Assembly (NCBI GenBank): GCA_947463915.1
Contig: CANHVO010000003.1
Location: 1-64,000 of the forward strand
DNA from: Planctomycetaceae bacterium
Lineage (GTDB): Bacteria; Planctomycetota; Planctomycetia; Pirellulales; Pirellulaceae
Direction of reading: 5' to 3'
Length of the DNA: 64,000 bases
The notes under the pieces were generated by a model. The model was not told the origin of the DNA, ran no database searches, and worked only from the letters and a program-made list of their open reading frames with translations. Made by a program: the position numbers and the translations under genes. Every line of letters starts with the position of its first letter. Position 1 is the first letter of the stretch. Shown piece by piece: positions 18,772 through 29,101 of the stretch.

Positions 18772-19150
18772 GTAGCCGATCTCGCCAGAGATAGGCATTT
18801 TCTTCGTAGCCGATCTCGCCAGAGATTGGAGGGTTACGGAATCGGTTGTTGGTGCATCCAAAGTCTGGCGACTTCGGCTACGGGGTTTCGGATCGTAGCC
18901 GATCTCGCCAGAGATTGGAGGATTGCGGAAAGGGTGTTGGCGTGTCCAAAGTCTGGCGACTTCGGCTACGGGGTTTCGGATCGTAGCCGATCTCGCCAGA
19001 GATTGGAGGGTTACGGAAAGGGTTGTTGGTGCGTCCAAAGTCTGGCGACTTCGGCTACGGGGTTTCGGATCGTAGCCGATCTCGCCAGAGATTGGAGGAT
19101 TGCGGAAAGGGTTGTTGTGCGTCCAAAGTCTGCCGACTTCTGCTACGGGG
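18772..19150. repeat. array of 88-89-bp hairpin repeats, GTAGCCGA family
   Basis: Four units start at 18806, 18895, 18983 and 19072, preceded by a short partial copy at 18772. Each unit folds as a hairpin: GTAGCCGATCTCGCCAGAG plus ATTGGA pairs imperfectly with TCCAAAGTCTGGCGACTTCGGCTAC-like sequence (given here in parts: TCCAAAGTCTGGCGA, then CTTCGGCTAC). It fills the gap between the kinase and the regulator and overlaps the last codons of the kinase gene at 19143-19150. If the two genes share a transcript, the array is transcribed. Confidence 0.82.
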
Positions 19151-21692
19151 TCTTCTCTTTGTCTAAGACTTCACGAACGAGTCGAAGCAATTGCTCGTCA
19201 GTGTACGGTTTTGCCAGGAAGCCTTCAATGTCGAGCAAACGACCTTCCTCGCGACTTGGGCGACGCAGCCCGCTACTGGTGATGATCTTGGCGCTGGAAT
19301 GGATAGCGCGCAGGGACTCTTTTACCTGTAGGCCATCCATATTGGGCATCATCATATCAAGAATAATGCAATCGATTTCCGCAAACTGGCGTTGGTACGT
19401 TGCGATCCCTTCCAAACCGCCATTGGCCACTAAAACGCGATAGTTGTTGGAGACCAAGGTTTCCTCGGCAGCTTCCAGTATCAAGGCTTCGTCGTCGATG
19501 AGCAGAATCAATTCGCCATTGCCAACAGGAATCACTGGCGACTTCATCGGAGCAGCCTCGAGCTTGTTGGTTATCTTCGAACTCGGCAACAAAATCATGA
19601 ATTTACTACCGCTCCCTTGCTCGCTGTAAACTGAGATATCGCCACCATAGGACCGCACGATTCCGATCGATGTTGCGAGCCCCAAACCGGTCCCTTGGCC
19701 CTGTGGTTTCGTCGTAAAGAACGGATCAAAAATCCGATCGATGATTCCCTTTGGGATTCCATGACCTGTATCTGAAACCGAAATAAGGATATGCAAACCT
19801 TCTTTTAGAATGTCGCTTCGTGAAGCTCGAGATGCATTTACCACAAAGTCTTCAGCCTCAATCAGCAACTCCCCGCCGTCGGGCATCGCGTCGCGAGCAT
19901 TGATGGCCAAGTTCATGACCACTTGTGACAACTCGGTGCTGTCGCCGTCAATACGATGGAGTGCAACGGGAACTGTCACTTTCAACTTAATGGATTGGGG
20001 TAATGTATGTCTGAGTATCTCTTCTAATTCCGATAGAATGGCAACGACATCGATCTGCTTCCAATCGGTTTTTTCTCCTCCAGCAAAAGCCAACAGTTTT
20101 TGGATCATTCTCGCGCCACGATCTGCACTTGCAATGATATTCTCCGTCAACCGTTCAGGGGATTTGCTTCCTCGTTGAAGCAATCTCGCACTCATGATGA
20201 TAGGGGTTAGAACATTGTTTAAGTCGTGCGCAACACCACCGGCCAACGTGCCAATGCTCTCTAGACGTTGAGAACGCCGCTCACGGGCTTCCTCGCGTAC
20301 GCGAGCCGTCACGTCGATCATGAGCAAGAGTTGAGCGACGGGCATATGATTGCTGTCGAAAATTAAAGAACGGCGTTGTTCGATCACAAGATCTTGACTG
20401 TCACTACCGGCCTTTGAAAACGTGGCGGTATGGGAGCCATTCTCCAATAAAATTTTCCGACCATCGCGCCATTCGCCTTCTCGCTGATTGAAGACCAATT
20501 CAACGATACTCTTCCCGATAGCGGTTGCTTTCGAGATTTCAAAGAGCCTTTCAGCTCCCTCATTCCAAGACTGGATACAATCATCGAGATCGCAAACAAC
20601 GATTCCTTCGTTTACTTTGTCGAGGATAGATGCATATTCCCGCTCGCGCGCTTTTAGCTTTTCAGTTTCTGAGATATCGCGGAACTTTATTGTGGCGATG
20701 TGGTCCTTCTCCAGCGTCGTCCAGACGACAGAACCTTCGCATTGCAATTGCACCCCATCGATTCGTTGAATGGGAAGCTTTGCCAAGGATTGCTCGCTTT
20801 GCCGACCACTGCTCTTTAGTTCATCACCACGGAATCCTGCCGGCAAAAAGTCTTTCAAGTTCCAGTTGCGACCTGCGTCTCGCTCTAAGTCCACCCCTAA
20901 AATTTTAGCCGCGGCAGGATTCATGTAGCGAATCGCAAGGTCGTCGCTGCAAGTCAATATTCCCTCGAAAGCAGACTCGATTACGGCTTGAAGCTCATGC
21001 TGATGTTTGACCAACTCGAGTTCCGCATGATCCCGTTTCCTGCGATCAACGACTGCTGCCAGTCCGACAATTGCAATTAGCGTTAAGGCTAAGAGATTGC
21101 CGATAGTGATGGTTGTGCGCGAAATTGCTGTGCGAGAACGCAGAAGAGCTTCGCCCTCCCGAAGCTTCCCTTCTTGGATTGCCAAAATGGACTGGCATGC
21201 TTGACGCGCACCTTCCATCGCCGCCTTGCCCCGGCCAGATTTGACAAGCGCCAGCACTTCATCACTAACTCGAATCTCGCGTTCGCGGCCCCTTAGCTCG
21301 ATTGTTGCGGCAAGGTGCGCTTGCTGCTTTTGGAATGAATCGCCCAACGCAATCACGTGCGCTCGCGTTTGAGGATCTTCGGACGCTCGATCCGATAGCT
21401 TCTCTAAATATTCTGTGGCTTTTCGAACGCCAGAATAATGGGGCTCCAGAAAAGCCGGATCACCAGTCAACAAGAATCCTCGTTGTCCAGTTTCAGCGTC
21501 CGTCATCGCTGAAAGTACTTCCTGGGTCGCCTCTCGCACCTCATAAGCCTGAGACGCAGTTTCCTCCGTTCTTCGAATCGCAAGGGTGTTTATAAAAGTA
21601 ACGATCGCAAATACCGCCACTGCGAGAAAAGCCGTGATGATGGCGGAGGGTAGCAAATACCCTTTGGCATTTAGTTTCAACGGGGGGAGCAA
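19143..21692 (-). CDS. CHASE3-PAS-PAS hybrid histidine kinase
   Basis: 849 residues starting at TTG (TAAGG about 10 nt upstream; no better ATG in frame). TM1 is at 13-36. A CHASE3 sensor (about 40-190) contains DAETGQRGFLLTG, and TM2 is at about 194-215. There are two PAS domains (about 228-345 and 350-465). HisKA has H489 in GGVAHDLNN, and HATPase follows with NLAINARDAM, DTGHGI and GTGLGLA. A C-terminal receiver has acidic pocket LLIDDE, D779 (IILDMMMPNMDG) and K828 (LAKPYT). It is a membrane sensor with an additional receiver, able to run a phosphorelay. Likely cognate regulator: the NtrC-type protein next on the strand. The last codons overlap the hairpin array. Confidence 0.9.
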   Translation of the reverse strand: MLPPLKLNAKGYLLPSAIITAFLAVAVFAIVTFINTLAIRRTEETASQAYEVREATQEVLSAMTDAETGQRGFLLTGDPAFLEPHYSGVRKATEYLEKLSDRASEDPQTRAHVIALGDSFQKQQAHLAATIELRGREREIRVSDEVLALVKSGRGKAAMEGARQACQSILAIQEGKLREGEALLRSRTAISRTTITIGNLLALTLIAIVGLAAVVDRRKRDHAELELVKHQHELQAVIESAFEGILTCSDDLAIRYMNPAAAKILGVDLERDAGRNWNLKDFLPAGFRGDELKSSGRQSEQSLAKLPIQRIDGVQLQCEGSVVWTTLEKDHIATIKFRDISETEKLKAREREYASILDKVNEGIVVCDLDDCIQSWNEGAERLFEISKATAIGKSIVELVFNQREGEWRDGRKILLENGSHTATFSKAGSDSQDLVIEQRRSLIFDSNHMPVAQLLLMIDVTARVREEARERRSQRLESIGTLAGGVAHDLNNVLTPIIMSARLLQRGSKSPERLTENIIASADRGARMIQKLLAFAGGEKTDWKQIDVVAILSELEEILRHTLPQSIKLKVTVPVALHRIDGDSTELSQVVMNLAINARDAMPDGGELLIEAEDFVVNASRASRSDILKEGLHILISVSDTGHGIPKGIIDRIFDPFFTTKPQGQGTGLGLATSIGIVRSYGGDISVYSEQGSGSKFMILLPSSKITNKLEAAPMKSPVIPVGNGELILLIDDEALILEAAEETLVSNNYRVLVANGGLEGIATYQRQFAEIDCIILDMMMPNMDGLQVKESLRAIHSSAKIITSSGLRRPSREEGRLLDIEGFLAKPYTDEQLLRLVREVLDKEKTP

Positions 21693-21973
21693 TGATGTCG
21701 CCTTATCTTACGGATTTGCAAAAAAATCGAGTATCACCAATTCCCGGTTTGTTCTCGATTTGTGTCTCATTCGCTGAATTGGAGCCGCACCGATTGCTTT
21801 GGCATGCAAAGTGCATACCAAAAAAACTCGTTTTGTGTAGGCTTTTTCGATCCTTGTAAAGCACGGTGATTCAGCTGGTTATTCACATTACCAAACATGT
21901 TAGCGTGGCGAGGGCCTATTCGGTATCCACTGGCAAATGGTGGGGGTGCAATTGGCCAACGCTTTTTGGGCCA

Positions 21974-22587: not shown

Positions 22588-23451
22588 TTGAATGCAAGGT
22601 ACAACAGTGCGCCTCAGCCACATCTGGTCGTAGCTGGCTTAATGGCAATGGCCATGGGTATCTATTATTTTGCAATTCAAAGCAACTCGCCCTCTTCGTC
22701 ACCAAGTGTCGAAAACTTTGAATCTGTGGACGGTTCTCCTGCGTGGTCCGGCGAATCGCCAAACGAAATGCATATGACCACGGGGGTTTCAGCGGAAAAT
22801 GGCGAGTCAGAAATCCTACCTCCTACCCAATCCATGGTTTCGCATCGAAGCGATCGAGAACAACCATCGCGGGCAACGATTGCAAGCCCTCTGGAATTCG
22901 GTCGAAACGGGACGGATTTCTCACAAACTGCTTCCCCACCTTTACAGGGAGATATTCAGGTCTTTTTTTCACCCAAGGGTGGATGCACGACGGCTATCGT
23001 CGCGGAATTGAATCGAGCACAGCATCAGGTTATGGTTCAGGCCTATTCCTTTACATCGGAACCAATTGCTGCTGCGTGTGTGGCTGCGCACCATCGTGGT
23101 GTGCAAGTTTTTGCAGTACTGGATAAGAGTCAAGAATCGGAGCAGTATTCCGCCGCCGACTTTTTAGTCAATTCTGGGATCACTACCTTGATTGATAGCC
23201 AACATGCGATCGCTCACAACAAAGTCATCTTGATTGATGGGCAAACGCTAATTACAGGAAGCTTCAACTTTACCACCAATGCGGAGCAATCCAACGCTGA
23301 GAATCTGCTGATCATTCGCAATCATCCTGCTCTTTACCACGAATACGAAAAGAATCTGCAGCACCATGCGGAACACAGTAAACCGCACGTGCCTCGCGGA
23401 TCTGTGAATAATTCTGCTGATCGCGGAAGCCATCCTTCGAAAAAGCGATAA
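22588..23451 (+). CDS. membrane-anchored phospholipase D-family nuclease-like protein
   Basis: 287 residues. The start is TTG at 22588, decided by an excellent AAGGAG 9 nt upstream. A hydrophobic segment at about 12-31 anchors or exports it. A Ser/Glu-rich linker (about 35-115) leads to a single PLD domain with the HKD signature H-N-K-(x4)-D in AHNKVILIDGQTLITGSFNF, then SNAENLLII. Proteins of this layout (Nuc-type, one HKD motif, N-terminal anchor) act as dimers that cut phosphodiester bonds in DNA or lipids. The C-terminus is His/Lys-rich. It lies between the kinase pair and the CheB/CheR kinase but has no evident functional link. Whether it is a nuclease or a lipase is not decided by sequence. 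Confidence 0.8.
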   Translation: MNARYNSAPQPHLVVAGLMAMAMGIYYFAIQSNSPSSSPSVENFESVDGSPAWSGESPNEMHMTTGVSAENGESEILPPTQSMVSHRSDREQPSRATIASPLEFGRNGTDFSQTASPPLQGDIQVFFSPKGGCTTAIVAELNRAQHQVMVQAYSFTSEPIAAACVAAHHRGVQVFAVLDKSQESEQYSAADFLVNSGITTLIDSQHAIAHNKVILIDGQTLITGSFNFTTNAEQSNAENLLIIRNHPALYHEYEKNLQHHAEHSKPHVPRGSVNNSADRGSHPSKKR

Positions 23452-26800: not shown

Positions 26801-27916
26801 ATGCTTTCGCATGAGTTGCGAAATCCGTTGAGTGCAGTGCTGACAGCAAGCCACTATTTGAGCGACCAACGGGCGACGCCGACCAACCATCCTCGCGCTA
26901 TCGCAACAATCCAACGCCAGGCGTCGATGATGGCGTCGTTGCTAGATGACTTACTCGATGTTTCGCGGATCTCGCTTGGCAAAATCGAGTTGACGTTGAG
27001 CGTCTTCAACCTCGTCGATCTGATTGAATCGATTCGGGAGACGACCTTACCCGAGATCACGTGCCACCAAGCGAACCTTCAGTTCGTTATCGAGGACCAA
27101 GAGCTGTTTGTGCACGCGGATTGGTCTCGCTTAATTCAAGTGCACGTTAACTTGATCCACAACGCAGCAAAATACTCCCCGCCCGGCAGCCCCATTGATG
27201 TGACGATGAAAGCGGAAGACGGAATGGCGGTGGTGACGGTCCGCGACGAAGGTTCTGGGATTCCAGCGGATTTCTTGCCTAAAATCTTTGAACCCTTTGT
27301 CCAATCGGATGAAACACTTGACCGCTCCGAAGGAGGTTTGGGGGTAGGCTTAACACTCGTAAAATCCCTGGTCGAATTGCATCGCGGAAGCATCGAAGCT
27401 TTCAGTGAGGGGCGGGATAGCGGCAGTACTTTTTTGTTAAAGATCCCACTGACAAATCCTCGCCTTTCTGGGAGAGAGCCTCCTAAAAGTGTTTCGACGG
27501 GCCTCCAGCCAAAGGATGGACAATCGCAAACGAAATTCAACTCAAAACGAATCGTTCTTGTTGAGGACATCGATGACAATCGAGAGATGCTCCAGTCAAT
27601 CCTGGAACTCGACGGACACGAAGTCGTTTCTGCCATGGATGGGGAGGCGGGATGCGATGCAATCCGTAGTTTTAAGCCGGATATTGCGTTGATCGATATC
27701 GGCTTGCCAGGTATCGACGGTTACGAGGTTGCACGCAAGGTTCGCCTTGATTCTTCCTGCGAGAAAGTTCGACTCGTTGCACTAACCGGCTACGGTCAAA
27801 GCTCTGATATAGCAAACGCTCGAGCAGCTGGCTTCGACGAGCATCTAGTAAAGCCGGTCGATCCTACTGCTTTGGCGAAGATTATTGAATGGCACGAGCC
27901 GCCTACCGTGGATTGA
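23846..27916 (+). CDS. CheB-CheR-PAS-histidine kinase-receiver fusion
   Basis: 1356 residues, cytoplasmic (no membrane segment). A CheB-like methylesterase domain (about 15-200) has S24 (IGASAGG), H51 (IIQHLSPDF) and D143 (SGSGSDG) as triad candidates, but no N-terminal receiver. A CheR-like methyltransferase (about 225-490) has WVSACATGEEAYSLA. A heptad coiled coil full of SNEELQATNEE-type repeats (about 655-740) leads into two PAS domains. HisKA has H989 (SHELRNP) and HATPase follows with NAAKYSPPG and GGLGVGLTLV. A C-terminal receiver has D1284 (LIDIGLPGIDG). The ribosome binding site AGAGG precedes the ATG. Such fusions are known in many phyla, usually as orphan sensors. No chemoreceptor gene is nearby. 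The CsrA-receiver gene follows. Confidence 0.92.
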   Translation: MNLPEQFSSGSRASPSFVVGIGASAGGLESLEKLFQNLPADTGMAFVIIQHLSPDFKSMMYELLARDTKMDIHRAEDGMHLEANNIYLLPPKKEIIIAGGELHLIDKDLSKGLTLPIDRFFESLARECGPRGIAIILSGSGSDGSRGIRDLSQAGALVICESETTAKFDGMPLSAQATGLVDMVLSPQEMGKALIQHAANPLDAKKSGDLAYRTEQDRLGLRGADAIYELFRHEYDLDFSVYKEATVQRRISRRVAMSETPNIDSYAERLRNDKSELNSLYQDLLIGVTQFFRDEEPFQYLQETVLPELLRKRALDRTIRIWVSACATGEEAYSLAILFHEAFEAAGRPPQLKIFATDVHKKSLHQAGRGIFREESMKHVSNQRRNRYFVRHNDVYQISNDIREMIVFAPHNLLRDAPFTDLDLVSCRNLLIYFQPPAQTKALSLFHFGLNTGGILFLGSSESPGELASEFETIHDRNKVFRKWRQARLPAEIRVPSVRTVGLGSPSAALRSFAIPNKTADVGLLKVYDHLLSKYMPPSLLINEKRELVDSFGGAEKLLRLPSRRPSLDVLDLIDPGLRTTLVGALQRVLKTESQVCFSGVKMTGESGEHTYNLTVEPFQNPSSHAIQYLLTFDPVEQVVPIDASEFEKAPDVNEISKSHMQQLEEDLRYTKENLQATIEELETSNEELQATNEELVASNEELQSTNEELHSVNEELYSVNAEHQRKIGELAEVNHDMYHLLENTDVATIFLDRDLRIRKFTSRIRRIFDLMDQDVGRPISSFAHRIQLDDMLDRIKQVSENGDLFESEVHTADGICYLLRILPHRVDQSIHGIVIVLVDLAPLEDLRGRLRWMSSIVESTDDAIVGEDLNGIITSWNAGAQSLYGYSAGEAVGKHVSLLVPVGREAEIEDYLTHVKNGESVKTFETIRIRRDGEQVYVSLTISAVRDALNRVIGLSKIARDVTERVDVEAKLRDQAKQRDMFLAMLSHELRNPLSAVLTASHYLSDQRATPTNHPRAIATIQRQASMMASLLDDLLDVSRISLGKIELTLSVFNLVDLIESIRETTLPEITCHQANLQFVIEDQELFVHADWSRLIQVHVNLIHNAAKYSPPGSPIDVTMKAEDGMAVVTVRDEGSGIPADFLPKIFEPFVQSDETLDRSEGGLGVGLTLVKSLVELHRGSIEAFSEGRDSGSTFLLKIPLTNPRLSGREPPKSVSTGLQPKDGQSQTKFNSKRIVLVEDIDDNREMLQSILELDGHEVVSAMDGEAGCDAIRSFKPDIALIDIGLPGIDGYEVARKVRLDSSCEKVRLVALTGYGQSSDIANARAAGFDEHLVKPVDPTALAKIIEWHEPPTVD

Positions 27917-28117
27917 GTCATTTGTCAAAAATCATCATCTCGCTGCGGACGCATCTGCTAGCAAACTCAAAAAACAACTGGCAATCGACCTTGACTCCAG
28001 AGTGCGATTGCATTCCATTAAGAGCCAATCGGATTGTAGCACGGCGAGAAGGATATCACTCAATCAGCAGTTAGTTTTCGGCTGAACCCCCGCGATGCCG
28101 GGCGTGACACAAACCAA

Positions 28118-28142
28118 CCGGACATTTTCAAACAATGTTCGG
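28118..28142. promoter_or_regulatory. inverted repeat upstream of CsrA-receiver gene
   Basis: CCGGACATT and AATGTTCGG are 9-bp arms (one mismatch) separated by 7 bp, about 84 bp before the ATG at 28226. It could be an operator or an mRNA hairpin. Nothing else notable lies in 27917-28225. Confidence 0.35.
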
Positions 28143-28225
28143 AAATCATGGAATGAGCCGAGGAGCGAACCTAGGTCACCAATGATGGTGCGTCCTGGAA
28201 AGGCTTCGGTTACGGAGACCAAAGA

Positions 28226-29101
28226 ATGTTAGTGCTTTCTCGTCGTGCCAGTGAGACCATTCGTTTTCCCCAGCTTGGGATATCAGTTTCTATTCTCTCG
28301 GTCAAGGGAAATCGGGTTCAAGTTGGCGTCGATGCCCCAGCTCAGATTCAAATTGTTCGGAAGGAACTCGAGTCAGTTGCTGATACGAACGGAAAAGATG
28401 GAATGGCGAACTCGATCGTCAGCAATTCACTCGCCAGTGTAAAGTCATCCGAAGAAAAACATGCATTGAAGAATCGCTTAAACCGAGCAATGCTCGCGTT
28501 GCAACTTACCCAAAAACAGCTTTCGGCAGGGCAGTTGGAATCAGCCGACAAAACTCTTGCTTTTGCGTTAGCCAGATTGGCGGAACTAGAGGACGGATCT
28601 TGTTCGAAAAATGAATGCGAGATAGCTTCAACGTTTGCAGATTCATTTCCTGCACCAAAGGAAATGTCAGGCGGCTCAACTATGTCGCTATCAAGTCGCG
28701 CTACAGCAAAACCTATCGAAGTTTTGCTAGTTGAAGACGATCTGAACGAACAAGCGCTTTTGAGAACGCTTTTGGAAATGGAAGGATACCGTGTCCATAC
28801 CGCTAAGAACGGGCGCGAAGCTTTGGAATGCCTAAGTCGCAGTAGGCCGGTCTGTGTACTACTCGATATGATGATGCCTGAATGTGATGGTGCAGAGACG
28901 CTTGAGCGTATTCGAGCGATTTCTCGATTCAACGAACTTCCTGTTTATGCTGTCAGTGGCACCTCTCCCGAATCTGTGGGCGTCTCCGTTGGAACGGATG
29001 GGGTCGACGATTGGTTTCCTAAGCCACTCAATGCGTCACGCTTGGTCCAGCACATGCGCCGACGATTCTCTGACCTAGGTAATGTAAATAGTGCCTACTG
29101 A
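28226..29101 (+). CDS. CsrA-like RNA-binding domain fused to a receiver domain
   Basis: 291 residues. Residues 1-50 align with CsrA/RsmA: MLVLSRRASETI, GNRVQVGVDAP and VRKEL. L4, R6 and the RNA-contacting Arg (R45, equal to R44 of E. coli CsrA after a one-residue insertion) are kept; the usual His before it is Val. Residues 75-122 form a helical segment (KNRLNRAMLALQLTQKQLS), then an unstructured linker. Residues 164-285 are a complete receiver with E170/D171/D172, phospho-acceptor D214 (VLLDMMMPECDG), S244 in place of Thr, and K266 (FPKPLN). CsrA dimers bind GGA motifs in mRNA leaders. Here phosphorylation could gate RNA binding or dimerisation (inference). It follows the CheB/CheR kinase, a possible phosphodonor. 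The start is fixed by the CsrA N-terminus. Confidence 0.88.
   Translation: MLVLSRRASETIRFPQLGISVSILSVKGNRVQVGVDAPAQIQIVRKELESVADTNGKDGMANSIVSNSLASVKSSEEKHALKNRLNRAMLALQLTQKQLSAGQLESADKTLAFALARLAELEDGSCSKNECEIASTFADSFPAPKEMSGGSTMSLSSRATAKPIEVLLVEDDLNEQALLRTLLEMEGYRVHTAKNGREALECLSRSRPVCVLLDMMMPECDGAETLERIRAISRFNELPVYAVSGTSPESVGVSVGTDGVDDWFPKPLNASRLVQHMRRRFSDLGNVNSAY

Follow-up and report, generated by a model that had tools for sequence, protein, structure and literature searches.

A planctomycete CsrA-receiver fusion carrying a DHp-like hairpin as a candidate output of a phosphorelay

We describe a planctomycete protein in which a CsrA domain, a hairpin resembling a DHp module and a receiver domain are joined in a single polypeptide. 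It is encoded in a 64,000-nt stretch of a Planctomycetaceae genome, here called the window, and its features are listed in Table 1. On balance we favor the reading that it is a response regulator with CsrA as its output and a built-in phosphotransfer module. Phosphate would pass from H989 of a hybrid kinase via D1284 of that kinase and H79 of the hairpin to D214 of the fusion protein, altering the grip of CsrA on mRNA. This reading builds on the three domains, their conservation, a recurrent kinase neighbor, the decay of the receiver where that neighbor is lost, and a match between H79 and hybrid kinases.

Table 1. Features of the fusion gene and of the adjoining kinase gene in the window.
Feature	Position in window	Strand	Details and basis
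Putative partner hybrid kinase, CheB-CheR-PAS-HisKA-HATPase-receiver, 1356 aa	23846..27916	+	Pfam; H989, D1284, K1336; neighborhood conservation
C-terminal receiver of the kinase, residues 1236-1347, proposed relay intermediate	27551..27886	+	Pfam; association of hybrid kinases with H79
309-bp intergenic stretch, kinase to fusion	27917..28225	+	Coordinates
csrA-DHp-like-receiver fusion gene	28226..29101	+	291 aa, ATG start; ORF list and Pfam
CsrA domain, residues 1-48	28226..28369	+	Pfam; R6 and R45 invariant across 104 fusions
DHp-like helical hairpin, residues 65-122	28418..28591	+	hhalign against HisKA alignment, AlphaFold2, conservation
H79 codon	28460..28462	+	Aligned with the phospho-acceptor His of HisKA
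Receiver domain, residues 166-277	28721..29056	+	Pfam; E170/D171/D172, D214, S244, K266

Domains of the fusion protein and their distribution

The original prediction was that the N-terminal 50 or so residues of this protein are a CsrA domain and that a complete receiver follows. Both domains were recovered by Pfam scan above their cut-offs: CsrA (PF02599) at residues 1-48 (E=2.6e-13, 50.2 bits against 27) and Response_reg (PF00072) at residues 166-277 (E=1.7e-22, 80.1 bits against 30.2). The residues named in that prediction are present as well, namely L4, R6 and R45 (the equivalent of R44) in the CsrA part, and the acid pair region E170/D171/D172, the phospho-acceptor D214 and K266 in the receiver, where S244 is also in place. 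The NCBIfam CsrA models match too, but score under their equivalog cut-offs (50.6 bits, cut-off 70.1), as expected since the CsrA domain is divergent. PF02599 is nevertheless matched by all 45 aligned members of the family, and a comparison of 104 distinct fusions showed R6, G34, A37 and R45 to be invariant and L4 to be kept in 100. Chance similarity of the CsrA part is ruled out by the Pfam match, the 45 matching members and these invariant residues. The same Pfam scan found neither an ANTAR domain (PF03861) nor HATPase_c in the fusion protein, which without an ATPase domain is not a histidine kinase.

The segment between CsrA and the receiver had been described as a helical linker. AlphaFold2 (monomer, 48-sequence alignment, mean pLDDT 84) does predict two helices there, at residues 65-100 and 104-122, but the segment appears to be more than a linker, namely a DHp-like module with a near-universal histidine, H79, in its first helix. 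We assessed conservation in 77 sequences chosen for H79 and an intact receiver, so that the histidine is present in 77 of 77 by selection. The best conserved part of the hairpin is H-x-x-R-N-x-L, with R82, N83 and L85 each found in 73/77; the window protein has H79-x-x-K82-N83-x-L85. Profile-profile alignment with hhalign to HisKA domains taken from kinases at the fusion loci placed H79 on the phospho-acceptor histidine (probability 96.9, score 48.1). The best of 100 column-shuffled decoys scored 18.4 and the reversed profile 9.8, and decoy probabilities were at most 16.0. Thus, the hairpin shows the H-box histidine followed by N at +4 on a helical hairpin by which DHp/HisKA domains are recognized.

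Single-sequence Pfam matches to the hairpin were weak, with HisKA in 4/45 members and SPOB_a in 1/45, and the window protein itself gave no HisKA match in this way. A hairpin-only profile run against PDB sequences returned repeat proteins and designed helices only, and no histidine kinase or phosphotransferase. A Foldseek search with the whole AlphaFold2 model was dominated by the receiver and is uninformative on the hairpin. The residue following H79 differs from the conserved acid of autophosphorylating kinases. Taken together, the hairpin resembles a third conserved module of DHp type that is without an ATPase domain.

The source genome (7.6 Mb, 99% complete) contains eight CsrA matches, five of them short genes and three of them fusions; the two further fusions, like the conserved hairpin domain with H79, go beyond the original prediction. 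One of them (L008) is oriented divergently to another CheB-CheR kinase. The other (L007:364-1215, G000:C355) begins with TTG and is missing both the Asp and the Lys of the receiver as well as the H79 of the hairpin. The same decay is seen in its orthologues from Pirellula-type genomes (L108, L109, L112, L114, L120), which suggests a conserved aspartate-less version of the protein. These decayed-receiver fusions, which have no adjoining kinase, may be constitutive or respond to another signal. Two of the short csrA genes, L004 and L005 (G000:C268 and G000:C461), are identical over the stretch read, reflecting either duplication or assembly redundancy. FliW was not found in the source genome, and control of the fusion by FliW was set aside on that ground.

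A search for CsrA-plus-receiver architectures across planctomycetes, proposed along with the original prediction, yielded the 104 distinct fusions in the class Planctomycetia (duplicates removed). In a search of the order and the phylum with PF02599 only, fusions were swamped by short CsrAs in the E-value ranking; a combined CsrA-plus-hairpin profile was effective. With this profile full-length fusions were found in at least about 55 of the 297 genomes of the order (a hand count among scored candidates). Several genomes from a second Planctomycetia order have them as well, and no full-length match was obtained in the other sampled classes of the phylum. In a non-exhaustive scan of about 85,000 prokaryote species genomes for two peptide patterns, every full-length fusion came from a planctomycete record, in most cases from Pirellulaceae or Pirellulales. 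An assembly artefact or accidental read-through is ruled out, the architecture being found in more than 100 distinct sequences and three times in the source genome.

Neighboring kinases and the conserved histidine

The fusion gene had been noted to lie directly after a CheB-CheR kinase gene. This gene is on the same strand and stops 309 bp before the fusion ATG, and a simple scan of the gap detected no sigma-70-like promoter and no intrinsic terminator. The adjacency is repeated over dozens of genomes. Among intact-receiver fusions with enough flank, 32/46 have a kinase or CheB-CheR gene within 1 kb, 21 of these 32 neighbors being CheB-CheR kinases, as compared to 1/45 short csrA genes (Fisher p=2e-12; the adjacency p-values are overstated, related sequences being non-independent). 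Within 1.5 kb such a gene was found for 61/85 intact-receiver fusions and for only 1/19 fusions with a decayed receiver. The remaining 24/85 intact-receiver fusions have no kinase within this distance, and thus the partner does not always adjoin. Among 33 further loci, which include genomes of the second order, a hand count gave 26 whose 1.5-kb flank carries a kinase or CheB-CheR gene. The two genes may be on the same strand, with the kinase on either side of the fusion, or be convergent or divergent, and co-transcription by itself is therefore not enough to explain the adjacency. In the window, a second hybrid kinase (CHASE3-PAS-HisKA-HATPase-receiver, 19146-21707, minus strand) precedes the CheB-CheR kinase by about 2 kb, and positions 22588-23451 on the plus strand encode a phospholipase-D-like (PLDc_2) protein that has a hydrophobic segment at its N terminus and may be an exported nuclease or lipase.

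The presence of H79 was found to follow the type of the neighboring kinase. Counting complete neighboring kinases only, the kinase is a hybrid in 51/53 cases where the fusion carries H79 and in 0/5 where it does not (Fisher p=4.6e-6, uncorrected for phylogeny), and Pfam confirmed that the five non-hybrid kinases have no receiver. In both exceptions (L220 and L348) Pfam detected a single-domain receiver gene beside the kinase in the same cluster. The tree implies about three independent losses of H79, each matched by kinase type. Tree-based tests of H79 against receiver decay and against hybrid kinase both pointed in the expected direction with too few independent pairs for significance.

Two loci show fusions with and without the histidine close together. 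Planctomycetes bacterium K23_9 carries both designs within about 12 kb (L225, L113), an H79-bearing fusion with a hybrid CheB-CheR kinase and an H79-less fusion with a non-hybrid one. At L353:8462-15803 two CsrA-receiver fusions, one with the His and one without, lie on either side of a CheB-CheR gene and a HisKA-HATPase-receiver gene. These two genes may be one split kinase, and for the H79-less copy the pair was not scored as a complete kinase.

Proposed phosphorelay and alternative explanations

We propose that the hybrid kinase autophosphorylates on H989 and passes the phosphate to D1284 in its own receiver. The DHp-like hairpin of the CsrA protein would take it from D1284 on H79 and hand it to D214 of the fusion's own receiver. 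Phosphorylation of D214 would then change the grip of the CsrA dimer on GGA-type mRNA sites, and binding may rise or fall. With kinases that lack a receiver, phosphate is expected to go directly to the Asp of the fusion, and H79 would be dispensable. Control of CsrA by phosphorylation, put forward in the original prediction, is supported as the most likely role, yet we infer the phosphotransfer itself, as well as the RNA binding and the direction of the effect, from sequence. Control in this manner without any sRNA, as that prediction envisaged, is plausible.

The direct transfer from H989 to D214 that was first suggested is unlikely to be the principal route here, and a relay of four steps is a better fit, because the kinase has its own receiver with D1284 and because H79 tracks hybrid kinases. 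The source genome has ten ordinary Hpt matches, and its hybrid kinases could therefore relay elsewhere. A two-step scheme, in which the hairpin is a dimerization leftover of a kinase ancestor and H79 is non-catalytic, would agree with the eight H79-less, intact-receiver fusions that still adjoin kinases, where transfer to the receiver must be possible without H79, and the kinase adjacency stands whatever H79 does. We nevertheless regard this scheme as rather unlikely, as about 95% or more of the H79-bearing family retain each of H79, R82 and N83 while the rest of the hairpin drifts, and H79 is missing in all five proteins whose complete neighboring kinase has no receiver.

H79 could instead act as a phosphatase or drain, removing phosphate from D214 or from the kinase receiver and so resetting the system. 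H-x-x-x-N is like the H-box residues that take part in DHp phosphatase reactions, and hybrid kinases are often bidirectional. On its own, such a role leaves unexplained why H79 is retained only with hybrid kinases or separate receiver genes, and we consider it improbable.

The invariant residues of the CsrA part, together with L4, fall in the two regions that contact RNA in E. coli CsrA according to mutagenesis and structures. The family's RNA-contact residues belong to beta1 (L4, R6) and beta5 (R44, here R45), and because R6 and R45 are invariant the CsrA part has likely retained RNA binding. The fusions share an F-P-x-L-G loop in this part (residues 14-19, window 28266-28283; F in 94/104, P in 102/104) at the place where I-G-D is the usual sequence in short CsrAs of the same genome. 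That the domain has given up RNA and serves as a dimer scaffold only, or binds another protein, might be argued from its divergence (50 bits, under the NCBIfam equivalog cut-offs), its missing C-terminal helix and this loop, absent from the same-genome short CsrAs, but is highly improbable given R6, R45, G34 and A37 invariant and L4 in 100/104 across 104 divergent fusions.

Relation to known systems

Among global regulators of bacterial mRNA, CsrA is the best known; the controls known for it are sRNA sponges and FliW. Stand-alone CsrA/RsmA proteins are normally about 60 aa long; the fusion matches them over its N-terminal 48 residues, with the key RNA-contact residues retained, and differs in carrying two signaling modules, in having the C-terminal helix replaced and F-P-x-L-G in place of I-G-D, and in occurring in a genome with no FliW. 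The logic that leads from a hybrid kinase to CsrA is shared with the BarA/UvrY (GacS/GacA)-CsrB-CsrA cascade. In that cascade CsrA is titrated by an sRNA made through the response regulator (PMC4682653), whereas in the fusion receiver and CsrA are a single polypeptide.

A receiver joined to an RNA-binding output is also found in the ANTAR response regulators (AmiR, EutV type, PdtaR; examples are listed in PMC12471899). These act by antitermination through an ANTAR helix bundle C-terminal to the receiver, whereas in the fusion CsrA is N-terminal and the DHp-like module lies between. In the same 2025 review E. coli CsrA is entered as an "orphan RR" with a C-terminal RNA-binding domain, a label at odds with the structure of this protein, a stand-alone CsrA without a receiver. 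Our literature search found no paper describing CsrA as the output of a receiver protein; automated domain lists in supplements may contain the architecture.

The Spo0F-Spo0B-Spo0A, CckA-ChpT-CtrA and Pak-SdrG-PhyT-PhyR relays are of the His-Asp-His-Asp kind, and their second histidine belongs to a helical module of DHp type that has no kinase activity (PMC9981736, PMC5898713). The relay proposed for the fusion would follow the logic of these DHp-type phosphotransferases (Spo0B, ChpT, PhyT). Those relays use a separate phosphotransferase, and their output is transcription or an anti-sigma partner switch, whereas in the fusion one polypeptide combines the putative phosphotransfer module, which has no ATPase-like domain, with its terminal receiver and CsrA. 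The separate single-domain receivers at L220 and L348 recall the Spo0F-Spo0B arrangement.

It is an evenly balanced question whether the fusions form a widespread planctomycete class in which CsrA output, DHp-like hairpin and terminal receiver in one protein let the complete His-Asp-His-Asp relay of a hybrid kinase control translation directly, needing neither sRNA nor FliW. The K23_9 pair offers a natural comparison: the design that has the histidine module goes with a hybrid kinase and the one that lacks it with a non-hybrid kinase, which bears on why relays gain an extra step. If the reading is true, a large family with CsrA itself as the phosphorelay output would be a different route linking sensing to translation. 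The recurring sensor-kinase neighbors suggest that sensing is wired directly to mRNA control without an intermediate small RNA, and the fusion family may account for the use of many CsrA copies by planctomycetes.
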